From assembly GCA_030612725.1 (NCBI GenBank), contig JAUWNJ010000001.1:62001-126000 (forward strand): 64,000 bases of DNA, in the 5' to 3' direction. The stretch is from Planctomycetales bacterium. GTDB taxonomy: Bacteria; Planctomycetota; Phycisphaerae; SM23-33. The notes beneath the pieces were generated by a model. The model had not been told where the DNA came from. It did not search any database and saw only the letters and a program-made list of their open reading frames with translations. The translations under genes were made by a program, and so were the position numbers. Each line of letters opens with the position of its first letter. Within the stretch, counting starts at the first letter, position 1. Below are positions 2,746 through 62,777 of this stretch, piece by piece.

Positions 2746-4302
2746 ATGAACTGGGCAGAACTGGGACAGAAAATTCTCATAGCGGTCTATACCTTTGCAT
2801 TGGTGATGGTGTGCATCTACGGTTTCCACCGCTACGTGTTGGTGTACCTGTACTATCGCCACCGCCGAAAGGCCCCTCGCGCGCCGGGCAAGTTCGAGGA
2901 ACTCCCGCGAATTACCGTCCAACTGCCGATGTACAACGAGCAATACGTAGCCGAACGCATCATTGAGCAAACCTGCCGGATAGATTACCCGCGCGATAAG
3001 TTCCAGATACAGGTTCTCGACGACAGCACGGACGATACGGTCGAAATTGCCGCTGCTGCTGTGGAGCGGGCACGGGCACAGGGATTCGATATTGAATTCA
3101 TCCACCGCGACAATCGCGTCGGATACAAGGCTGGGGCTTTGGAGAACGGCCTGAAGACCGCGACGGGCGAATTCGTCGCCATTTTCGACGCCGATTTTGT
3201 TCCGGGCGCTCACATTATCAAGGACGCCATCCAGTATTTCACCGACGAGAAGGTTTGTGCGGTCCAGACCCGCTGGGAGCACATCAATCGCACCGATTCG
3301 CTTCTGACGCAATCCCAGGCGATATATCTCGACGGGCACTTCGTTATCGAGCACGTCGCCCGCAACCGAAGCGGCAGATTCATGTGCTTCAACGGAACGG
3401 CTGGGATGTGGCGGAAAATCGCCATCGCCGATTCGGGCGGCTGGCAGCACGATACGCTTACCGAAGATATGGACCTGTCGTACCGCGCCCAACTCAAAGG
3501 GTGGAAATTCGTGTTCCTTCCCGAACTGACCACGCCGGCGGAACTTCCGCCGGAGATGAACGCCTTCAAGGCCCAGCAATTCCGCTGGACCAAGGGCGGT
3601 GCGCAGACGGCAATGAAGATGCTGCCTAAGGTCCTGCTGTCTAAGGCTCCGCTGAAGGCGAAGGTCGAGGCGTTCTTCCAGTTGACCTGTTTTTCGGTGC
3701 ATTTTTACGTGCTGATTTTGGTAACGCTGCTGTTCCCAGCCATGTGCATCCGGGCGCTTCCGATGGAAGAGGGTTCGACGACGCGGGCGATTTTCGACCT
3801 GGCGGTTTTCACACTGGCGACGGTATCGGCCAGCGTGTTTTACATTTCCAGCCAATATGAATTGTTCCGCGACTGGCGGAGCGTGCTGAAATTTCTACCG
3901 TTCCTTATGGCATTGGGGATTGGGATTTGCCTGTCGAACACCAAGGCGCTTCTGGAGGCCATCTTCGGAAAGCAGAGCGAATTTGTCCGCACGCCCAAGT
4001 ACGGCGCGGGAACGGACAAGTACCATATGCACAAAGAGGCCGCCGAATCCGCCAGGAAAACCAAGCACCATATCCTGCCATACGTGGAGATGGGATACGG
4101 TATCTACATGTCGGTCTGTGCAGCCATTAGTCTGATGAGCATTCGCTCGGCAATGGCGGCCCCGTTTATGATACTCTTCGCCGTCGGGTTCTTTTACGTT
4201 TCGATCCTGAGTTTGCAGGGACATCGGGCAAAAGCGCCCCAACTTACCCCTGTGGTGGAAATGCGAAATCCGAAATGCGAAATCCGAAACAAATTCGAAT
4301 AA
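2746..4302 (+). CDS. Membrane GT2 glycosyltransferase (cellulose synthase/CslA-like)
   Basis: A 518-residue processive-type family 2 glycosyltransferase. One N-terminal membrane helix (residues about 8-36) precedes the GT-A domain with the full D,D,D,QxxRW set: LDDS near 92, DAD at 148-150, TED at 239-241 and QQFRW at 277-281. Four or five membrane helices follow (about 310-480). It should build a beta-linked polysaccharide at the inner membrane from a nucleotide sugar and may extrude it; the CslA/glucomannan synthase branch is the closest I recall, but the product cannot be told. No PilZ domain or partner subunit is visible. The last 13 or so codons (MRNPKCEIRNKFE) are translated from the repeat element at 4258-4408, so the natural C-terminus has been replaced or extended. 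Confidence 0.88.
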   Translation: MNWAELGQKILIAVYTFALVMVCIYGFHRYVLVYLYYRHRRKAPRAPGKFEELPRITVQLPMYNEQYVAERIIEQTCRIDYPRDKFQIQVLDDSTDDTVEIAAAAVERARAQGFDIEFIHRDNRVGYKAGALENGLKTATGEFVAIFDADFVPGAHIIKDAIQYFTDEKVCAVQTRWEHINRTDSLLTQSQAIYLDGHFVIEHVARNRSGRFMCFNGTAGMWRKIAIADSGGWQHDTLTEDMDLSYRAQLKGWKFVFLPELTTPAELPPEMNAFKAQQFRWTKGGAQTAMKMLPKVLLSKAPLKAKVEAFFQLTCFSVHFYVLILVTLLFPAMCIRALPMEEGSTTRAIFDLAVFTLATVSASVFYISSQYELFRDWRSVLKFLPFLMALGIGICLSNTKALLEAIFGKQSEFVRTPKYGAGTDKYHMHKEAAESARKTKHHILPYVEMGYGIYMSVCAAISLMSIRSAMAAPFMILFAVGFFYVSILSLQGHRAKAPQLTPVVEMRNPKCEIRNKFE

Positions 4303-4408
4303 CCGAAATCCGAAATCCGAAACAAATTCGGTTCTGTTGCTTCGTTTTGGTCATTTGAAAATTCGGGTTTAGGATTTGTTTCGTATTTCGAGATTCGTAT
4401 TTTGGATT
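4258..4408. repeat. MITE-like heptamer inverted-repeat element, copy 1
   Basis: The left arm is a run of GAAATCC/GAAATGC heptamers followed by GAAACAAATTCG. After a spacer containing GGTCATTT, the right arm carries the complement (TTTCGTATTTCGAGATTCG, ending in GGATTT). The element fills the space between two convergent genes: its left arm encodes the C-terminus of the glycosyltransferase and its right arm ends at the stop of the WD40 gene. Copies 2 and 3 are at 24459-24617 and 62630-62776. Confidence 0.8.
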
Positions 4409-8392: not shown

Positions 8393-8607
8393 GTAGGCTG
8401 GGACGAAGCCCCACCTTTTTTTGAATAATGAATATTGAACAAGGAATGTCGAATTTTGAAGTAAAAGAAACAAACCCACCTTTGAGGGATGTTTTTTTCA
8501 CTTCGTCATTCAAAATTCTTTGTTCACTATTCAATATTCTCTTTATCCGGATAAGGTGGGACTACGCTTCCCGTAGGGACACTACGTGTCGCTTCGTCCC
8601 AGCCTAC
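8393..8607. repeat. Composite hairpin: outer GTAGGCTGGGACG arms around a heptamer stem
   Basis: The outer arms are 8393-8417 and 8553-8607 (GTAGGCTGGGACGAAGC paired with its exact complement, plus CCCACCTT with AAGGTGGG). The right side carries an extra CCCGTAGGGACACTACGTG hairpin. Inside lie two heptamer arrays of the GAATATT type (8423-8464) and its complement (8501-8542). The whole structure separates the ABC permease gene from its ATPase gene in one operon and overlaps the last codons of the permease. The right-hand module recurs at 38717-38771. Confidence 0.8.
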
Positions 8608-9812
8608 TCCAGGCTTAGCGTTTCTGCTACATCGACGTTCATTGCCTGCCATGCCGGGTATATTGCTGCGAGCGAGCCGCCGATGACAGCGGCTGCGGCG
8701 GCTATCAATATCCATTGCGTGGTAATCTGCACTGTCAGTAGTGGTTTGACGGCTTCGATGCCTGCTCCGGCGGCGGGGGCCAGCGCTATTCCGATAGCCG
8801 CTCCGCATATCGTAAGAATCAGCGACTCGCCCATCACTTCTTTGAGTATGAGCATTCGCGGCGCGCCCATTGAGCGTAGGATAGCGATCTCCCGCCGCCG
8901 CTGGATGACCATCGTGTACAGCGTTACCATGATGAACAGCATAGCCACGATAAGCGTGATGGTGTTGACCGTATCGACGTAGATGTACATGACGCCGAAT
9001 CTGTCTTCGAGCATTGCGCGATATTCGCCGACGGCGATGACTTTGAGATGCTTTTGGCGTCGGATCGCCTCGGTGGCAGCGCCGATGCTCACGCCTTCGC
9101 GGAGTTTGACCATCAGAAGCGTGTACCGCCCCATGCCGCCGTAAAACAGGTGCTCCGCCGTCGCCAACGGGATAAAAACGCGAACCATCGCCCCAGCCGG
9201 AACGATACCGACGATAGTGAAATTGCGGGCGGCAGAATAAACCTCATCGCCCACCTTCAGACCCGAAGCCCTCGCCAGTCGCGAGTCGATAATCATCTCC
9301 AGCCCGCCGTGGTCGGCGAGTTCGGCTTCGGAAATATCGACAATTTTCTCGCTGGGCGTGGAGAATTTCTCTTTCAACCAGTTCGCGCATGCGTTTTTCG
9401 GGTCGAAGACGCGTCCTTCGGTGATTCGACCCTCGCCCAGCAGGTATCGCAGGTCTTCAGGCCTGACGCCGACGACATTGTGCTCGATGCCGACGATGCT
9501 GATACGCTGGAGGTATATCGGTACGACATATTCGGCTGCGGTGTTGTCGCCGATTGCGAGATTCTTTATCTTTTCGGCGTCTTTATCGGACATTCCGCCG
9601 CCGCTGATGGTGGTGATGTTGTCGGACCAGTTGGACGGATAGATAATCAGGTCGGCATCGACTGCTTCCCACCTGTCTGCCACTTCGCCCAGCGACCCGC
9701 GCGCCAGGCCTGAAAGCGTAATCATCATACACACGCCGATTGCCACGCCCAATGCGCTCAGGGCGCTGGGAACCTTGTGGTGCAATATGTTCGCCAGTGG
9801 AAGAGGGATCAT
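8604..9812 (-). CDS. ABC transporter permease, FtsX/MacB type
   Basis: About 402 residues with MacB/LolC topology: one N-terminal membrane helix (SALSALGVAIGVCMMITLSG), a periplasmic MacB_PCD-like domain of about 200 residues, then three membrane helices with the FtsX REIAILRSMGAPRMLILKE coupling loop. It would work with the LolD-type ATPase encoded just downstream, in lipoprotein release, peptide export or cell-wall control. The start is placed at ATG 9812 (MIPLPLANILHHKVPSALSA) because the frame upstream of it is made of the CAATTG heptamer array. No Shine-Dalgarno is visible. A composite hairpin sits between this gene and the ATPase gene. Confidence 0.87.
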   Translation of the reverse strand: MIPLPLANILHHKVPSALSALGVAIGVCMMITLSGLARGSLGEVADRWEAVDADLIIYPSNWSDNITTISGGGMSDKDAEKIKNLAIGDNTAAEYVVPIYLQRISIVGIEHNVVGVRPEDLRYLLGEGRITEGRVFDPKNACANWLKEKFSTPSEKIVDISEAELADHGGLEMIIDSRLARASGLKVGDEVYSAARNFTIVGIVPAGAMVRVFIPLATAEHLFYGGMGRYTLLMVKLREGVSIGAATEAIRRQKHLKVIAVGEYRAMLEDRFGVMYIYVDTVNTITLIVAMLFIMVTLYTMVIQRRREIAILRSMGAPRMLILKEVMGESLILTICGAAIGIALAPAAGAGIEAVKPLLTVQITTQWILIAAAAAVIGGSLAAIYPAWQAMNVDVAETLSLE

Positions 9813-21376: not shown

Positions 21377-23533
21377 TTACGCCGCCAGGGATGGGTTCAG
21401 GTGGGCGGGGGTTGGTTTGTCGCCGCGTCGGAAGCGGTTGGCGACGACGGCTTCGATTACCAGCAGGAGTATTACAACGGCCAGGAGTCGGTCCCAGAGG
21501 TTGTCTCCGGCGGCTGCTTCGGCTGCGGATTTATGAACGTCATCCAGCGTCCCGCCGAAATAGACACCCACCCCGTCATTTTGCGATTTTATCGCTTCGG
21601 CCATAGCCTCAGGTGCGATAGCGGATAAATCGCTTTCGACGCCGGCGGGATTAATGGCGAACGCGCCGGCAGGACCGTTAGCGGCGACCTCCCAACGATA
21701 GATACCGGGCTGATTCGTTTTTGTGAACACCGCCTCCGAACTGTCGCTGATCGTAAGGACCTCGATAGAGCCGTCAGGCGTCGTAACATTCACAGCCGAC
21801 TTACCGGTAACGCCCTCGCCGAAGCGAATCGTAACGGCAGAACCGGCGCTGAAGGTGTTGTCGGCTCCGAGATGTTCAGCCGAGGCGAAGCATATCCGCG
21901 TTACCATCGGAAGCAGCAGGTTTGTAGTGGCGAGGTTATTCCATTCCCGCCCGGCGGTGGTGGTCGCCAGAATGACCCGCCCGGACCCGAAATTCCTGGC
22001 CAAGAGAATCGGATCGCCGGCCGGTGATGAAAGGACGGTTTCATGGTCCCCGATAAGGCGCTCCATGCGGTAGTATCGCTGGATGATGACTTCACGATAA
22101 TCGGCGGGCGTTTCGTACAGCCCTTCCAGATACGGATGGCGAAGGTTTTTGACCGCGCGGAGTCCCTGGGCCTCCATACCGACCTGTCCGATGGCTTGAG
22201 CGATCCGACCGGGAAGCATACCGGCGAAACGTTCGTTGTAATTTGATGTCTTAACGGTCGGACCGAGGAAGAAGACGGCCGAACCCCCGCTCCGCACGAA
22301 CTCGACCACGGCGGCGGCCTGGTCTGCGGTGAATTCCGGAACATCGGCGAAGAAAACCACCTGCGCGCCGGTCAGGGAGTCGGCGTCGAACCGATTGGAC
22401 ATCACCGTCCGTCGTCGAATGGACCAGACATCGACTGAATCCAGCGCCGCTGTAAGGGTATGGGACGACGCAGCCGGGTTATAACCGGCGACTCGACCGC
22501 TTCCGGCGACGAGTAGCGCGCGGATTTCGCCTCCGATACGAAGGCTGAAGCGGCGGACGTTATCAACGGTAAGGTCGTCTGCCTCCCTGATAGCGATCTG
22601 GCCGACGTGGACGCCCGGCTCGCCGAAAGCGTGGACGAATTGCACGTCTGTCCCGGACGGGGTGTCGTTTTTGGCGGCGGGCAGGATTTTTCGCACCGGT
22701 TCACCGACTTCGGCTCCATCGACCTGAAGCCAGACGTGCGCTTCCTTATCCGTGGCGGAGGAATTAATCAATGTAGCGGTGAATTTCATTTCCCGTCCGG
22801 CGATCCGGCTTCCGGTAATCTTCATCTTCTCGATCCCGACGTTGACCGCTTTGACGCCGCCGGAGCAGTCCACCAGCATCAGAGGCACATCGGCGGTATC
22901 ATATTTGACCGGATTTCCAAAACTTATCCGCTGCATGTCGGAGAAGATGTAAATCGCCTTCTGCGGGGCGGTGCTGTTCTTCAGCAGCGCCAGCGCCTCC
23001 CTGACGCATTCAGACATATCGGCCCGGGCCGCCGACAGACTCGCCTGCGAAAGTTTCTGCCGATGGACTTCAAGGTCGCTCCGCAGATTTTCGGGACGGT
23101 CGGATGAGTTGGTCAGTATCAAAGCCGCCGCTGAGGGTCTGTCGGCTCCGCCGAGGAGTTTGGACGCTTCGCGCCGCGCCACATCCAAACGCGACTCGCC
23201 GCCTCGACCGACGCCCATCGAATAGGAGTTATCGACGATAATCACAGCGGCGAAACGCTTGTCCGAGAAGAAACCGGAAGTCGATTTCAGGATGGGTTCA
23301 GCCAGCGCCATCGCCAGTAGCGCCAGTAGCGCCGAGCGTATCAGCAGCAGAAGCCAATGCTCCAGGCGCCGTCGGCGGGCGGTCTTTTCCATACCCATTT
23401 TCAGGAACCGCAGCGTCGGAAAATACTCCTGCGGCGCTCGCACCGACGCGAGAAGGTGCAACACCAGCGGTATCGCCGCAGCCGCCAGACCCAGCAGCAA
23501 CCATCCCGTTACGAATGTAATCGCCAGCGTCAT
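21377..23533 (-). CDS. BatA-like membrane protein with von Willebrand A domain
   Basis: A 718-residue protein. Residues about 1-85 are the BatA N-terminal module: a first helix, HLLASVRAPQEYFPTLRFLKM, then RRRRLEHWLLLLIRSALLALL. A VWA domain follows with the MIDAS start VDNSYSMG and later FSDMQR. The middle carries Ig-like and GATase-like segments (VVFFADVPEFTADQAAAVVEFV), with a final membrane helix near the C-terminus (LLAVVILLLVIEAVVANRF). In planctomycetes such genes sit with MoxR and DUF58 genes, thought to form a chaperone/metal-insertion-like envelope complex. It overlaps the DUF58 gene by 4 bases. Confidence 0.85.
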   Translation of the reverse strand: MTLAITFVTGWLLLGLAAAAIPLVLHLLASVRAPQEYFPTLRFLKMGMEKTARRRRLEHWLLLLIRSALLALLAMALAEPILKSTSGFFSDKRFAAVIIVDNSYSMGVGRGGESRLDVARREASKLLGGADRPSAAALILTNSSDRPENLRSDLEVHRQKLSQASLSAARADMSECVREALALLKNSTAPQKAIYIFSDMQRISFGNPVKYDTADVPLMLVDCSGGVKAVNVGIEKMKITGSRIAGREMKFTATLINSSATDKEAHVWLQVDGAEVGEPVRKILPAAKNDTPSGTDVQFVHAFGEPGVHVGQIAIREADDLTVDNVRRFSLRIGGEIRALLVAGSGRVAGYNPAASSHTLTAALDSVDVWSIRRRTVMSNRFDADSLTGAQVVFFADVPEFTADQAAAVVEFVRSGGSAVFFLGPTVKTSNYNERFAGMLPGRIAQAIGQVGMEAQGLRAVKNLRHPYLEGLYETPADYREVIIQRYYRMERLIGDHETVLSSPAGDPILLARNFGSGRVILATTTAGREWNNLATTNLLLPMVTRICFASAEHLGADNTFSAGSAVTIRFGEGVTGKSAVNVTTPDGSIEVLTISDSSEAVFTKTNQPGIYRWEVAANGPAGAFAINPAGVESDLSAIAPEAMAEAIKSQNDGVGVYFGGTLDDVHKSAAEAAAGDNLWDRLLAVVILLLVIEAVVANRFRRGDKPTPAHLNPSLAA

Positions 23534-24435
23534 CGTCGAATCAATCGCCTCCTCCGCGATAAATAATTCAGCAGCATCAAGTCGTAAGGTTCATCGGTGC
23601 AGGCCTGGACATATTCGATGTTCCGGTCGCTGCACTCCTTGCGGTAGCGTTCGATGAATGAATTGATCTCGTCGCGGTACGAATCGCGCAGCAGGCGTGG
23701 ATCGACCTGCATCTTTTCGCCGGTCTCCATGTCAACGAAGTTGGTCATTTTCCTGAACGGGAAATCCAGTTCCGCGCGGTCGAAAAGGTGAAACAGGATC
23801 AATTGGTGCTTCTTGTAGCAGAAATGCTGAAGCGCACGCATTACCTCGGTCTGGTCGTCGTAGAGGTCGGAAATGACGATTATCAGCCCGCGCTTGGCGA
23901 TTCTCTCTGCCAGTTCGTGAAAAGTACCGGCCACGGCGGTTTGCTTTCCGGGTTTGAGACTCTCCAGGCCTGTGAAGAGGCGGTCAAGGTGCGCCGGCGT
24001 CGATGCCGGTGGAAGGTGCAGGCGAATCTTCCTGTCAAAGGCGACCATTCCGACCGTATCCTGCTGCCGGCACATCAGGTACGCCAGGCACGCCGCCAGG
24101 AAGCAGCCGTATTTGTACTTTGTAACCTCGCCGCTGTGGCGGTAATTCATCGAGCCTGAGATGTCCAGCAGGATGTACGCTCGCAGGTTGGTCTCCTGCT
24201 CGTACTGCTTGATATAGAAGCGGTCGGTCCTTGCCCACGCGACCCAGTCGAGGTGCCGCAGGTCGTCGCCGGGCGAGTATTCCCGCTGACCGGAGAACTC
24301 CACGGAAAAACCCTTGTGCGGACTGCGATGCAGGCCTGAGATGAACCCCTCCACCACCTGGCGGGCCAAAAGATTCAAATTGGCGAACTTCGCCAGTCGG
24401 TCAGGCTCAAAATAAAGGTAGGGAGATTTTGCCAT
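23530..24435 (-). CDS. DUF58-family protein
   Basis: About 301 residues of the DUF58 family. Hallmarks: G-x-H-x-SPHKGFSVEFSGQREYSPGDDLRHLDW near the start, then a VWA-like LDISGSMNY (MIDAS-like), and LIIVISDLYDD. DUF58 proteins are cytoplasmic partners of MoxR AAA ATPases and BatA-type proteins. Start placed at ATG 24435 (MAKSPYLYFEPD). It opens a seven-gene minus-strand run. No MoxR gene is inside the window; the upstream space is occupied by repeat copy 2. Confidence 0.9.
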   Translation of the reverse strand: MAKSPYLYFEPDRLAKFANLNLLARQVVEGFISGLHRSPHKGFSVEFSGQREYSPGDDLRHLDWVAWARTDRFYIKQYEQETNLRAYILLDISGSMNYRHSGEVTKYKYGCFLAACLAYLMCRQQDTVGMVAFDRKIRLHLPPASTPAHLDRLFTGLESLKPGKQTAVAGTFHELAERIAKRGLIIVISDLYDDQTEVMRALQHFCYKKHQLILFHLFDRAELDFPFRKMTNFVDMETGEKMQVDPRLLRDSYRDEINSFIERYRKECSDRNIEYVQACTDEPYDLMLLNYLSRRRRLIRR

Positions 24436-24458
24436 AATTTCACCAGAAATCAATTCAG

Positions 24459-24617
24459 GAAATACGAATATCGAAATACGAAATCCGAAACAAATTCGAA
24501 ATCATAATGACCAAATATCTCAAACATCCCAATCAGCAGAATCTTTTTCTGTTTCGGATTTTGAATTTTGGTCATTTGATATTGTTTCGTATTTCGTATT
24601 TCGACATTCGGATTTTC
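24459..24617. repeat. MITE-like heptamer inverted-repeat element, copy 2
   Basis: Left arm GAAATAC/GAATATC/GAAATAC/GAAATCC then GAAACAAATTC and a TGACC word; right arm GGTCATTTGA then TTTCGTATTTCG repeats ending in CGGATTTTC. The layout and sequence match copies 1 and 3. It lies in the gap of 387 bases (24436-24822) between the divergent DUF58 and glycosidase-like genes; its right end touches the rsmD tail remnant. Confidence 0.8.
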
Positions 24618-24618
24618 T

Positions 24619-24720
24619 CGGTGTTAGAAATATATTCCCATAATCGCGTCTTCGGTGCACGTATAAAGGTTTTAACGCATCGGAAACGGTTATGTTTCGC
24701 CGGCAGACAGAGACAGATGT
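24619..24720 (-). pseudogene. Displaced remnant of an rsmD 3' end
   Basis: Read on the minus strand, this gives CRRNITVSDALKPLYVHRR and RDYGNIFLTP, matching the C-terminus of the intact RsmD encoded at 26264-26839 (CQRNIVLPDTLKPLYLHDR, RDYGQMSLVFLTP). Over 63 aligned bases (24637-24699 against 26303-26365) 48 are identical by hand count. The homology stops at repeat copy 2, so the remnant has no stop codon of its own nearby. Only the tail is present. It is separated from the true rsmD by one gene on the opposite strand. Confidence 0.72.
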
Positions 24721-24822
24721 GTCGTAAAACAGTTCACACTTTTTTCTGAAGATCATTACCGGTGTTTCCGCTATGATCCACGTCCAGAGCGGTGGCTAGA
24801 TTGATTCAGGAGAATGCGACGA

Positions 24823-26220
24823 ATGGACACAAGACTGATACACTGTGCAACGTTGCTTATTGGTGCTGTTGGGGTAGTAATGGCCGTCGCATTGTCGGGC
24901 TGTGGGAAGGAAAAACCGTCCATGTCTAAACAGGAAATCGTTACGGTCCGGTTTAAGCAAACCGACAAGGTTTTTGTCAATCCGGGAAAAGGTTGGATGG
25001 CCTTTTATCGGATGCCCTCCCGTGAGATGCGATTTCCGTATGCGGTTACCTACTTCCGTTTGAACTGGGGCGACGTCGAGCCGTCCGAGGGCGAATACGA
25101 CTGGGCGTTAATCGACGATCCCATTAAGGCATGGTCGAAACAGGGTACGCGCGTCGCTTTCCGAATCATGACCGCCAACGCGCATACCAAGGGATACTAC
25201 TGTTCGCCGAAATGGCTTTTCGATGCCGGATGCAAGTCCTACGAATATGTCCAGGGCGGTCCGGACACCATGGCCGGGGGCAAGCGCATCAAACGCATCG
25301 AACCGGACTACGGCGACCCGATCTACCTGAAAAAGCACAGCGCGTTCATCAAGGCGCTCGCCAAGCGCTACGACGGGCACGCAGGAATCGAGTTTATCGA
25401 CATCGGCTCGTACGGTATCTGGGGCGAATGGCACACGAAGAACGACAAGGACTGGACGGTGAAGAAGCAGATCATCGACATGTACCTGAACGCCTTCGGC
25501 AAGACCCCGTTGTTGTCGATGTCGGACGATGTGCAGGCGCTGGCGTATGCGATTGCCGGTGGCGCTGGTGTGCGCCGTGACGGCGTCGGCTCGCCGTGGC
25601 ATGAAAAGAACTGGGTCGGCTCAAAAAGATATGCCGAAGTCAAAGGCTTTGAGGATCAGTGGAAGCGGGCGCCGGTGGTCTTCGAGTGGTACGGCCCTTA
25701 CGATTTTCTGATGCGCCGCAAGTGGTCATTTGACAGCGCGGTGGAATTCATGTTGAAAAACCATGTTACTTACATCTGTGATAACATCAAAAAGGTCCCC
25801 GCCGAGCAAATGCCGAAACTTCGGAAGTTGGCGAGGCTTTCGGGGTACCGTTTCGTGCTGCGCGAGGTCTCGCACCCCGCCTCGGTATCGCAAGGCCAGG
25901 AACTGAAGGTCAGGATGGAATGGTCGAACGTGGGGGTCGGCAAACTCTACAGGCGGTACCCGCTGGTAATCTATCTACTGGATGCAAAGGGCAAGGTCGT
26001 CTGTAGCGAAAAGCAGACCAAAGTCGATTCGTCCGCCTGGCTTCCCGGCGATTATGATTTGAGCGCAAGGATCAAGGTGTCCACGACACTTCAGGCGGGC
26101 GAGTACACACTGGGCGTCGCGTTGATTGACCCCCAAACGAAAAAACCCGCGATTCGCCTGGGCGTCGAGGTTCCGCATACCGGCCGGATTCACCATGTCA
26201 GTAGCGTAACCGTGAAATAA
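24823..26220 (+). CDS. Glycosidase-like lipoprotein (DUF4874/DUF4832 type)
   Basis: About 465 residues. The signal ends in ALSGC, a good lipobox. The catalytic-looking part is a TIM-barrel-like domain opening with NPGKGWMAF, followed by FRLNWGDVEPSEGEYDW and IEFIDIGSYGIWGEWH, patterns of DUF4874/beta-galactosidase-like proteins; the Glu in WGEWH is a candidate acid/base. The C-terminal 120 residues form a beta-sandwich (LKVRMEWSNVGVGKLYR...LAGEYTLGVAL type), as in DUF4832. AGGAG lies 10 bases before ATG 24823, which is why I prefer it to ATG 24814. The gene sits alone between rsmD and a displaced rsmD tail. Confidence 0.72.
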   Translation: MDTRLIHCATLLIGAVGVVMAVALSGCGKEKPSMSKQEIVTVRFKQTDKVFVNPGKGWMAFYRMPSREMRFPYAVTYFRLNWGDVEPSEGEYDWALIDDPIKAWSKQGTRVAFRIMTANAHTKGYYCSPKWLFDAGCKSYEYVQGGPDTMAGGKRIKRIEPDYGDPIYLKKHSAFIKALAKRYDGHAGIEFIDIGSYGIWGEWHTKNDKDWTVKKQIIDMYLNAFGKTPLLSMSDDVQALAYAIAGGAGVRRDGVGSPWHEKNWVGSKRYAEVKGFEDQWKRAPVVFEWYGPYDFLMRRKWSFDSAVEFMLKNHVTYICDNIKKVPAEQMPKLRKLARLSGYRFVLREVSHPASVSQGQELKVRMEWSNVGVGKLYRRYPLVIYLLDAKGKVVCSEKQTKVDSSAWLPGDYDLSARIKVSTTLQAGEYTLGVALIDPQTKKPAIRLGVEVPHTGRIHHVSSVTVK

Positions 26221-26263
26221 CCGTTTGTCTCCCAGTACAGTCGGGAAGGTATCCACGCGAGTA

Positions 26264-26839
26264 TCATGGCTCCATCGGCGTCAGAAACACCAGCGACATT
26301 TGCCCGTAATCGCGCCTGTCGTGCAGGTATAGAGGTTTTAACGTATCCGGCAGGACAATGTTTCGTTGGCAGCGAAAGATGATGAGTCCGTCGTCGGCGA
26401 GTTTGTCGGCAAGGGGCGTGAACAGATTTTCGCGGGCTTTGTCCCACCGCCATCGTTCCGTAAGCGCATAGGGCGGGTCCACGAAGGCTAAATCAATCGG
26501 TTCGTTCAATTCGGCGAGTCGTCGGCGCAGGTGTCGCATAATATCTCCGGGCCAAATCCGGCAGCGGTCAGTCAGACCCATCACGTCGATATTGCGTCTG
26601 AGGCGGTCCAGGGCATGACGGTCCCGTTCGGCAAAGGAGCAGTATTTCGCTCCCCGGCTGATGGCTTCAAGCCCGATACTCCCCGTTCCGCTGAACAGGT
26701 CCACCACGATCGCGTCATCGACGATCTCGCCGAGGATGTTGAACAGCGCGACCTTGACCCGTGAGGTTATCGGACGTGTGGCCGGACCTTTCGGCGGAAG
26801 GAGACGGCGACCTTTATGTTGACCGGCGATAATACGCAT
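26264..26839 (-). CDS. rsmD: 16S rRNA (guanine(966)-N(2))-methyltransferase
   Basis: About 191 residues, normal length. It methylates G966 of 16S rRNA using S-adenosylmethionine. Landmarks: MRIIAGQHKGRRL at the start, RPITSRVKVALFNIL, the SAM motif VVDLFSGTGSIGLEAISRGA, and the catalytic FVDPPY. Start at ATG 26839; an upstream in-frame ATG at 26884 lies inside a direct repeat and is unlikely. A diverged copy of its 3' end occurs 1.5 kb downstream. Confidence 0.93.
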   Translation of the reverse strand: MRIIAGQHKGRRLLPPKGPATRPITSRVKVALFNILGEIVDDAIVVDLFSGTGSIGLEAISRGAKYCSFAERDRHALDRLRRNIDVMGLTDRCRIWPGDIMRHLRRRLAELNEPIDLAFVDPPYALTERWRWDKARENLFTPLADKLADDGLIIFRCQRNIVLPDTLKPLYLHDRRDYGQMSLVFLTPMEP

Positions 26840-26845
26840 TTTAAA

Positions 26846-26929
26846 AGCAATCAGTGTTCCGCGTAGCGGTGCTACGCACAGCAATCAGTGTTCCGCGTAG
26901 CACCGCTACGCTGAACGCTGACCGCTTTG
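26846..26929. repeat. Direct repeat with GCGTAGC hairpins and a CGCTGAA heptamer array
   Basis: AGCAATCAGTGTTCCGCGTAGC occurs twice head to tail (26846 and 26880); each copy continues into a GCGTAGC...GCTACGC hairpin. Three heptamers CGCTGAA, CGCTGAC, CGCTTTG follow (26909-26929). It lies just upstream of rsmD. A related array is at 35333-35353. Confidence 0.65.
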
Positions 26930-61409: not shown

Positions 61410-62627
61410 ATGGGAAAACTAGCGATAACAGGCGGAACGCCCGTGCGGGCGACGCCACAGGAACAACTGGTTTGGCCTCAACATGACCAGGCGGAGTGTG
61501 ATGCCCTCGCTCGCGTCGCCGACAGCGGGCAATGGCAGCAGGGTCCGGAAGTGGCCGAGTTCGAGGAGATGTTCGCTGCCTACCAGCACGCCCAACACGC
61601 CATCTGCGCCAGTAACGGTACGGTAACGATGGAGATCGCCCTGCGCGCGTTCGGTGTGGGCGCCGGCGACGAGGTTATCATCCCGCCGCTGACGTTCTGC
61701 GCGACGGGTCTGTGCGTGCTGATGGTCGGGGCCGTGCCGGTCTTCGCAGACGTCGAACGTCACAACAGCAACCTCTGCCCGAAGGCGTTCGAAGCGGCCA
61801 TTACCGACCGTACGCGCGCGGTCATCCCCGTCCACATCGGCGGCACGCCGGCCGACATGGACGGTATCATGGAGGTGGCCCGCAAGCATGACATCAAGGT
61901 CATCGAGGACGCCGCCCACGCCCACGGCTGCGAGTGGAAGGGTACGCGGGTGGGCGCAATCGGCGACATCGGCTCGTTCAGTTTCCAGTCCGAGAAGATG
62001 ATGGTCTCCGGCGACGGCGGCATCATGACGACCAACGACGATGATTACGCCGCACTGTGCAAAAGCCTGCGGACATTCGGATACAAGTCCCCCAAGCCGC
62101 TGATGACCAGCAACTGGCGGATGGGTGAGTTCCAGGCCGCTGTCCTGAAGGTGCAGTTCTCGCGCCTGGACGACCAGATCGCCCACAAAATGGACAATCT
62201 TGACCGCTTCCTGGATCGGCTGAAAGAAATTGACGGCATCACCTACGAGATGGACGAGCGGGTAACGCGCCTGAACGGATACACCGTATCGCTTATCTAC
62301 GAAGCCGAGAAGTTCAAGGGTCTGCACAGGGACAAGTTCCTCGAGGCCCTAAAGGCCGAAGGGTACACAATGACGGCTAGTTACACCAACCCACTTTACA
62401 AAGGCCGGTTGTACCAGGAAAAGGCATTCGGTGCGTCCTGGGTCGTCGAGAAACTGGGTCAGAAGGTGGACTACTCAAACGTCTGCTGCCCCGTCGCCGA
62501 GAAACTCGCCGCCGAAGAACGGATCACCGTCGGCCACCACTATAATTTAATGGGCGACAAAAAGGACATCGACGGCCTGGTCGATGCTATTATCAAGGTA
62601 CAGCAGAACGTCGAGGAAATAGTATAA
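61410..62627 (+). CDS. DegT/DnrJ/EryC1/StrS-family aminotransferase
   Basis: A 405-residue PLP enzyme that normally aminates or dehydrates nucleotide-linked or free sugars. Landmarks: GGTPVR at the start, FEEMFAAYQHAQHAICASNGT, EVIIPPLTFCATG, VIEDAAHAHGCEWKG and the PLP lysine in SFSFQSEKMMVSGDGG. It starts 3 bases after the EF-G-like stop. Nearby surface-glycan genes are far upstream, so the substrate cannot be inferred from context. The gene ends just before repeat copy 3. Confidence 0.9.
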   Translation: MGKLAITGGTPVRATPQEQLVWPQHDQAECDALARVADSGQWQQGPEVAEFEEMFAAYQHAQHAICASNGTVTMEIALRAFGVGAGDEVIIPPLTFCATGLCVLMVGAVPVFADVERHNSNLCPKAFEAAITDRTRAVIPVHIGGTPADMDGIMEVARKHDIKVIEDAAHAHGCEWKGTRVGAIGDIGSFSFQSEKMMVSGDGGIMTTNDDDYAALCKSLRTFGYKSPKPLMTSNWRMGEFQAAVLKVQFSRLDDQIAHKMDNLDRFLDRLKEIDGITYEMDERVTRLNGYTVSLIYEAEKFKGLHRDKFLEALKAEGYTMTASYTNPLYKGRLYQEKAFGASWVVEKLGQKVDYSNVCCPVAEKLAAEERITVGHHYNLMGDKKDIDGLVDAIIKVQQNVEEIV

Positions 62628-62629
62628 GT

Positions 62630-62776
62630 AAATCCGAATATCGAAATACGAAATACGAAACAAATTCAAATGACCGAAATCATAAATTCAAAACAATGAC
62701 GTTTTTTGTTGTTTGGGACATTTGGAAATTTGAATTTCGTATTTGTTTCGAGTTTCGAGATTCGTATTTCGGATTT
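62630..62776. repeat. MITE-like heptamer inverted-repeat element, copy 3
   Basis: Left arm AAATCCGAATATCGAAATAC continuing into GAAACAAATTC and AAATGACC; right arm with GGACATTT, TTTCGTATTTG and TTTCGAGATTCG ending in CGGATTT. The same plan as copies 1 and 2. It fills the gap between the DegT aminotransferase and cysE, ending 2 bases before the cysE ribosome site. Confidence 0.8.
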
Positions 62777-62777
62777 T

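Follow-up and report, generated by a model that had tools for sequence, protein, structure and literature searches.

In a 64,000-nucleotide stretch of a planctomycete chromosome (hereafter the window, on contig C31 of the 3.16-Mb metagenome assembly G000), comparison with related genomes shows the insertion of a ~1.58-kb, one-gene segment in the 3′ end of rsmD, a gene of the 16S rRNA m2G966 methyltransferase family. The native tail of the gene was displaced by this insertion and a new end supplied. The segment, a single convergent cargo gene flanked by 43 bp and 105 bp, runs from the end of the intact rsmD to the displaced native tail, which it meets at codon ~156, and the old tail now lies beside the DUF58 gene. 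As a consequence of this position a stretch of ~95 bp of rsmD occurs in two copies, while rsmD remains whole because the insert supplies its last eight codons.

The second rsmD 3′ end is real. It lies ~1.6 kb downstream of rsmD in the reading direction of that gene, and in the same orientation. A blastn search within the window aligned 24637-24706 with 26303-26372 (53/70 identical, E 2e-8), and tblastn detected the same remnant (E 1.5e-8), which reads CRRNITVSDALKPLYVHRRRDYGN..IFLTP against CQRNIVLPDTLKPLYLHDRRDYGQMSLVFLTP. Genome-wide, the remnant is the second-best match to rsmD (E 8.6e-7), and its local score is 55, whereas none of 1000 dinucleotide shuffles of the intergenic region scored above 27. 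Similarity extends from near codon 156 to near codon 186. The initial annotation had placed a diverged rsmD tail at 24619-24720; the copy and its orientation hold, although the end at 24720 falls a few bases beyond detectable homology. Upstream of remnant codon ~156, in the leader of the cargo gene, no similarity to rsmD above that of shuffled sequences was found in G000 or in the relatives G001 and G025, so the remnant is a 3′ gene-end fragment and not a decayed full copy.

Sixty related genomes were compared, among them G001, G002 and G003, which belong to the same genus as G000, and G025, from another genus of the same family (rsmD identity to G000 of 92%, 87%, 81% and 74%, respectively). 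Two further assemblies, G001 and G025, carry the cargo gene between two rsmD tails, and the remnant is in register in all three genomes. In G001 the DUF58 gene, remnant, cargo gene, rsmD and following genes are all on one contig; in G025 the layout spans two contigs that overlap in the cargo gene (L066 and L065) and represent two strain variants of the locus, 96% identical over 756 bp. G002 and G003 have neither cargo gene nor remnant, and the DUF58 gene directly follows rsmD. Since this direct adjacency is shared by most other family genomes, where DUF58 lies within ~350 bp of the rsmD end, the empty arrangement is ancestral. The proposed comparison of rsmD synteny in relatives with and without the cargo gene thus confirmed an insertion, with filled sites in G001 and G025 and empty ones in G002 and G003. 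Both tails without the cargo gene, or a second rsmD paralogue, had been named in advance as outcomes that would speak against it, and neither was seen in the relatives examined. The other family loci examined yielded no credible second tail downstream of rsmD; one candidate (L011/L071, E 5e-4) was rejected, as the match falls within the DUF58 gene.

The tail that is native was identified from its flank. In G001 and G025 the remnant continues into the flank AGCAGGGATRCARGGGATRCA, the same sequence that lies behind the only rsmD of G002 and G003, and the far tail is therefore the native end in its native place. The intact rsmD genes of G000, G001 and G025 lack this flank and end in TPMEP, APMGP and SRAARS, respectively. 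In G000 the native flank has since been replaced by a palindromic repeat (Table 1) that is absent at the same place in G001 and G025. Within rsmD itself, codons 171-180 of G000 are identical to G003 at 29/30 positions and to G025 at 20/30; for codons 181-190 the counts are 18/30 and 21/30, and G002 and G003 agree with each other at 29/30. The change in affinity is sharp and was placed by eye after codon 183. Up to there G000 and G001 match G002 and G003, whereas from codon 184 onwards they resemble G025 more closely and depart from the common G002/G003 end. A switch of this kind within a continuous rsmD shows that a crossover occurred in the history of G000 and G001, and its direction, from the genus type to a G025-like type, argues that the last eight codons came with the insert. 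Together with the native flank behind the remnant, it bears out the earlier proposal that the host gene received a fresh tail from the insert and that the old tail marks the far end.

Table 1. Features of the rsmD locus, in window coordinates.
Feature	Position	Strand	Basis or remarks
DUF58 gene, ancestral next gene after rsmD	23530-24438	-	PF01882 E 7e-46
Palindromic dispersed repeat, 44-bp arms	24457-24618	.	Inverted repeat; abuts the remnant and replaces the native 3′ flank in G000
Remnant of native rsmD 3′ end, codons ~156-186	24619-24708	-	blastn, tblastn, alignment, shuffles; now outside any gene
Leader, remnant to cargo start	24709-24813	.	Kept in G000, G001 and G025 (identity to G000 87% in G001, 68% in G025); not rsmD-like
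Cargo gene, predicted secreted protein or lipoprotein, 468 aa	24814-26220	+	GH42-like N-terminal part, DUF4832 C-terminal part
Intact rsmD, 191 aa	26264-26839	-	Pfam PF03602 E 3.2e-41
Final eight codons of intact rsmD with the stop, probably insert-borne	26264-26290	-	Affinity switch after codon 183
Duplicated rsmD stretch, codons ~156-186	26282-26374	-	blastn and tblastn against the remnant; multiple alignment

The three remnants share derived changes that are not seen in G002 or G003, and so descend from one insertion event: all have GCG for ACG at codon 166, and those of G001 and G025, in which the flank is undisturbed, have a one-base-shorter end with ATCAGC where G002 and G003 read ATTAGC. 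Synonymous divergence (dS) orders the genomes as ((G000,G001),G002),G003, then G025. Between G000 and G025, dS of the cargo gene is 0.448, the lowest of eleven genes, and that of its ten neighbours is 0.75-1.14. The distance of remnant plus leader for the same pair is 0.41, close to the dS of about 0.42 between G000 and G002. Because the cargo and remnant distances to G025 are about half those of the flanks, transfer of a finished unit is favoured, and we have moderate confidence that the whole unit was transferred between the two genera after their split.

The best explanation for these data, and on balance a probable one, is one-sided homology-facilitated illegitimate recombination (HFIR), in which one end is joined through homology and the other illegitimately (PMC3240628), followed by block transfer of the unit between lineages. 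Incoming DNA, carrying an rsmD 3′ end followed by the convergent cargo gene, would pair with the terminal part of the resident rsmD, while the other end of the incoming DNA would be joined without homology to the resident gene slightly upstream, so that the stretch between the two joints is duplicated. At this second joint, homology stops near codon 156 with nothing rsmD-like beyond, but decay has overtaken the joint in each of the three genomes. The finished unit, comprising last codons, cargo gene and old tail, would later cross in one piece between the lineage of G025 and the G000/G001 ancestor by ordinary homologous recombination in the flanks, with G002 and G003 keeping the empty ancestral site. 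The crossover at codons 183/184 is perhaps that of this later transfer. A broader idea, which we consider quite doubtful, is that the rsmD 3′ end, whose tail the insert brings along, could act as a recombinase-free docking point, at which a single-gene cassette between gene-tail repeats, moved between genera by homologous recombination, could be gained and lost cleanly.

Several points weigh against HFIR followed by block transfer. The cargo gene is also slow in the close pair G000-G001 (dS 0.16 vs. 0.15-0.36 for its neighbours), and its far/near dS ratio of 2.8 falls inside the neighbours' range of about 2.2-5.5; for these reasons the dS values lend only moderate strength to the case for lateral transfer. 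A donor with the rsmD-cargo junction and a single tail was not found, which leaves the one-sided recombination step inferred. The event is an old one, and decay has blurred the upstream joint. The imperfect ~95-bp direct repeat would suit the att core of an integrase, or a circle integrated by a single crossover, equally well.

The main rival is an integrative element, formerly site-specific for the rsmD 3′ end and since decayed, that is, a cis-mobilizable element (CIME) in which attL and attR are kept and the integrase and transfer genes are lost. It would leave the same picture, in which the ~95-bp repeats are former att cores and an element-borne gene end provides the last eight codons, and a native end on the remnant with a fresh end on the intact gene is what it predicts. 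The geometry of an integrative element, recognized in the initial annotation, does stand, as direct repeats are present at both ends of the insert and one of them (codons ~156-186) completes rsmD. The element itself fares less well. The insert is one gene with its short sides, and contains no integrase or transfer gene. The absence of an integrase, also remarked on initially, was upheld in that no tyrosine integrase was found on contig C31 (those matched in the genome lie on other contigs, and serine integrases were not searched by profile), or near the locus in G000, G001 or G025. Among the family loci examined, a further insert accompanied by a copy of the tail was not found at this site, and no recurrence was seen. 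The repeat, which can be explained by homologous recombination, is longer than the usual 8-60 bp core (PMC5704250), and rsmD was not found as a reported integration site in the portions of the literature accessible to the search, where the only hit, a paper on a Pseudomonas CsrA family, was judged unrelated. We regard a CIME as a serious but unlikely explanation.

A likewise unlikely alternative is vertical inheritance from the common ancestor of G000-G003 and G025, with precise loss from G002 and G003 when the two tails recombined. In its favour, the distances of rsmD, DUF58 and BatA follow the species order, and direct-repeat recombination would restore the exact layout of G002 and G003. Given the dS order of the genomes, however, two independent precise losses would be needed; the tail end shared by G002 and G003 is unlike the intact and remnant ends of G000 and G001 and unlike the derived end of the remnants, and the halved distances of cargo and remnant to G025 also argue against vertical descent. 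Tandem duplication of rsmD, after which the downstream copy decayed and the cargo gene was inserted or captured independently, would account for an rsmD piece in the same orientation, but in none of the three remnants does rsmD similarity extend upstream of codon ~156, two rsmD copies were not seen in any family relative, and the novel end is on the intact copy rather than on the remnant, making this scenario very improbable. Chance similarity or an assembly artefact can be given almost no weight in view of the blastn E value, the failure of any of the 1000 shuffles to reach the observed score, and the recurrence of the layout in the separate assemblies G001 (one contig) and G025 (two contigs).

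The cargo gene probably acts as a secreted glycoside-hydrolase-like protein, a prediction based on Pfam matches to PF02449 (E 1.6e-7) and PF16116 (E 6.7e-18), both above Pfam cut-offs, and on the presence of a lipobox, LSGC. It has both domains of the DUF4832/GH42-like secreted proteins, the domain label alone being established here. No relative with a solved structure was found; the best PDB match, a GH42 beta-galactosidase, had an E value of 0.054. A ratio of nonsynonymous to synonymous divergence (dN/dS) of ~0.19 in two comparisons shows that the gene is kept under purifying selection. An internal TAG reported in the G025 cargo gene was dismissed; as it sits before the ATG, and as the two contigs are variants of one locus, the G025 gene is intact. 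Nothing suggests an interaction between the cargo gene and rsmD. The GC content of the cargo body resembles that of the flanks, with AT-rich sequence only at the junction, and promoter and terminator scans around the gene gave nothing above shuffles.

The closest relatives of the cargo gene outside the group are ~60% identical and occur in one Pirellulaceae and one Phycisphaerales genome, both distant planctomycetes. Neither rsmD nor any other gene of the neighbourhood was found in the flanks of these two loci (the G182 and G076 loci were left out). Among 397 genomes of the class, five contain a match at E<=1e-80, three of which are G000, G001 and G025; the other two are 61% and 54% identical. 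On plasmids the matches were limited to distant DUF4832 proteins, present on 13 of them and all <60% (27-29% identity in the best rows), and no phage match was found. The immediate donor may be absent from collections. DUF4832/GH42-like relatives are common in some planctomycetes, with 12 matches in the family member G017 (L038, L046, L052, L054-L061), an apparent expansion.

Dispersed palindromic repeats occur in the window. Repeats of the TTCGTATTTCG type and of at least one other palindromic family were observed at 24457-24618, 4257-4403 and 62627-62777 and near 8422-8610. Those at 4257-4403 and 62627-62777 are related to the repeat that abuts the remnant, and many copies are present in the four related genomes searched, as in families of the repetitive extragenic palindrome or miniature inverted-repeat transposable element (REP/MITE) kind. 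The gap between rsmD and DUF58 seems to collect such repeats: it holds the TTCGTATTTCG type in G000, another repeat in G025, and in G002 and G003 (L063, L064) a different palindrome, AGCAGGGATGCAGGGGATGCA ... TGTATCCCCTGTATCCCTGCT. Just upstream of rsmD, at 26855-26920, a short motif that is both repeated and inverted, CAATCAGTGTTCCGCGTAGC, makes up a further small palindromic unit.

The rsmD insertion is clearly a gene-acquisition fossil of a kind already known. As HFIR explains the anatomy, no site-specific recombinase is required, and the initial suggestion of a new kind of cargo insertion is unnecessary, since HFIR has already been proposed for displaced 3′ ends in the type VI secretion system (T6SS) of Vibrio cholerae and in Rhs loci (PMC5361080). 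What the locus offers is an unusually readable case of one gene added to a chromosome without breaking the host gene, because relatives still display the unoccupied sites, the two tails and the end that was exchanged. Displaced gene ends have been described mostly from toxin loci; that the target here is a housekeeping gene suggests that "second tails" could serve to find other single-gene acquisitions.

Two known systems invite comparison. Integrative and mobilizable elements and CIMEs in the 3′ ends of protein-coding genes likewise leave a direct repeat of the target end, a restored target and the old end at the far side (PMC5704250). Unlike them, the rsmD insert has no recombinase or transfer gene and carries one gene, with a degenerate ~95-bp repeat and no recurrence at the site. 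With HFIR at the V. cholerae T6SS and Rhs loci it shares a new 3′ end with the old 3′ part pushed downstream, and would share incoming DNA with a homology anchor in a conserved gene part and an illegitimate other end (PMC5361080; PMC3240628). It differs from those loci in that the anchor is a housekeeping methyltransferase gene of which only eight codons were exchanged, and in that the cargo is a single convergent gene with no toxin/immunity logic and the case is seen once.
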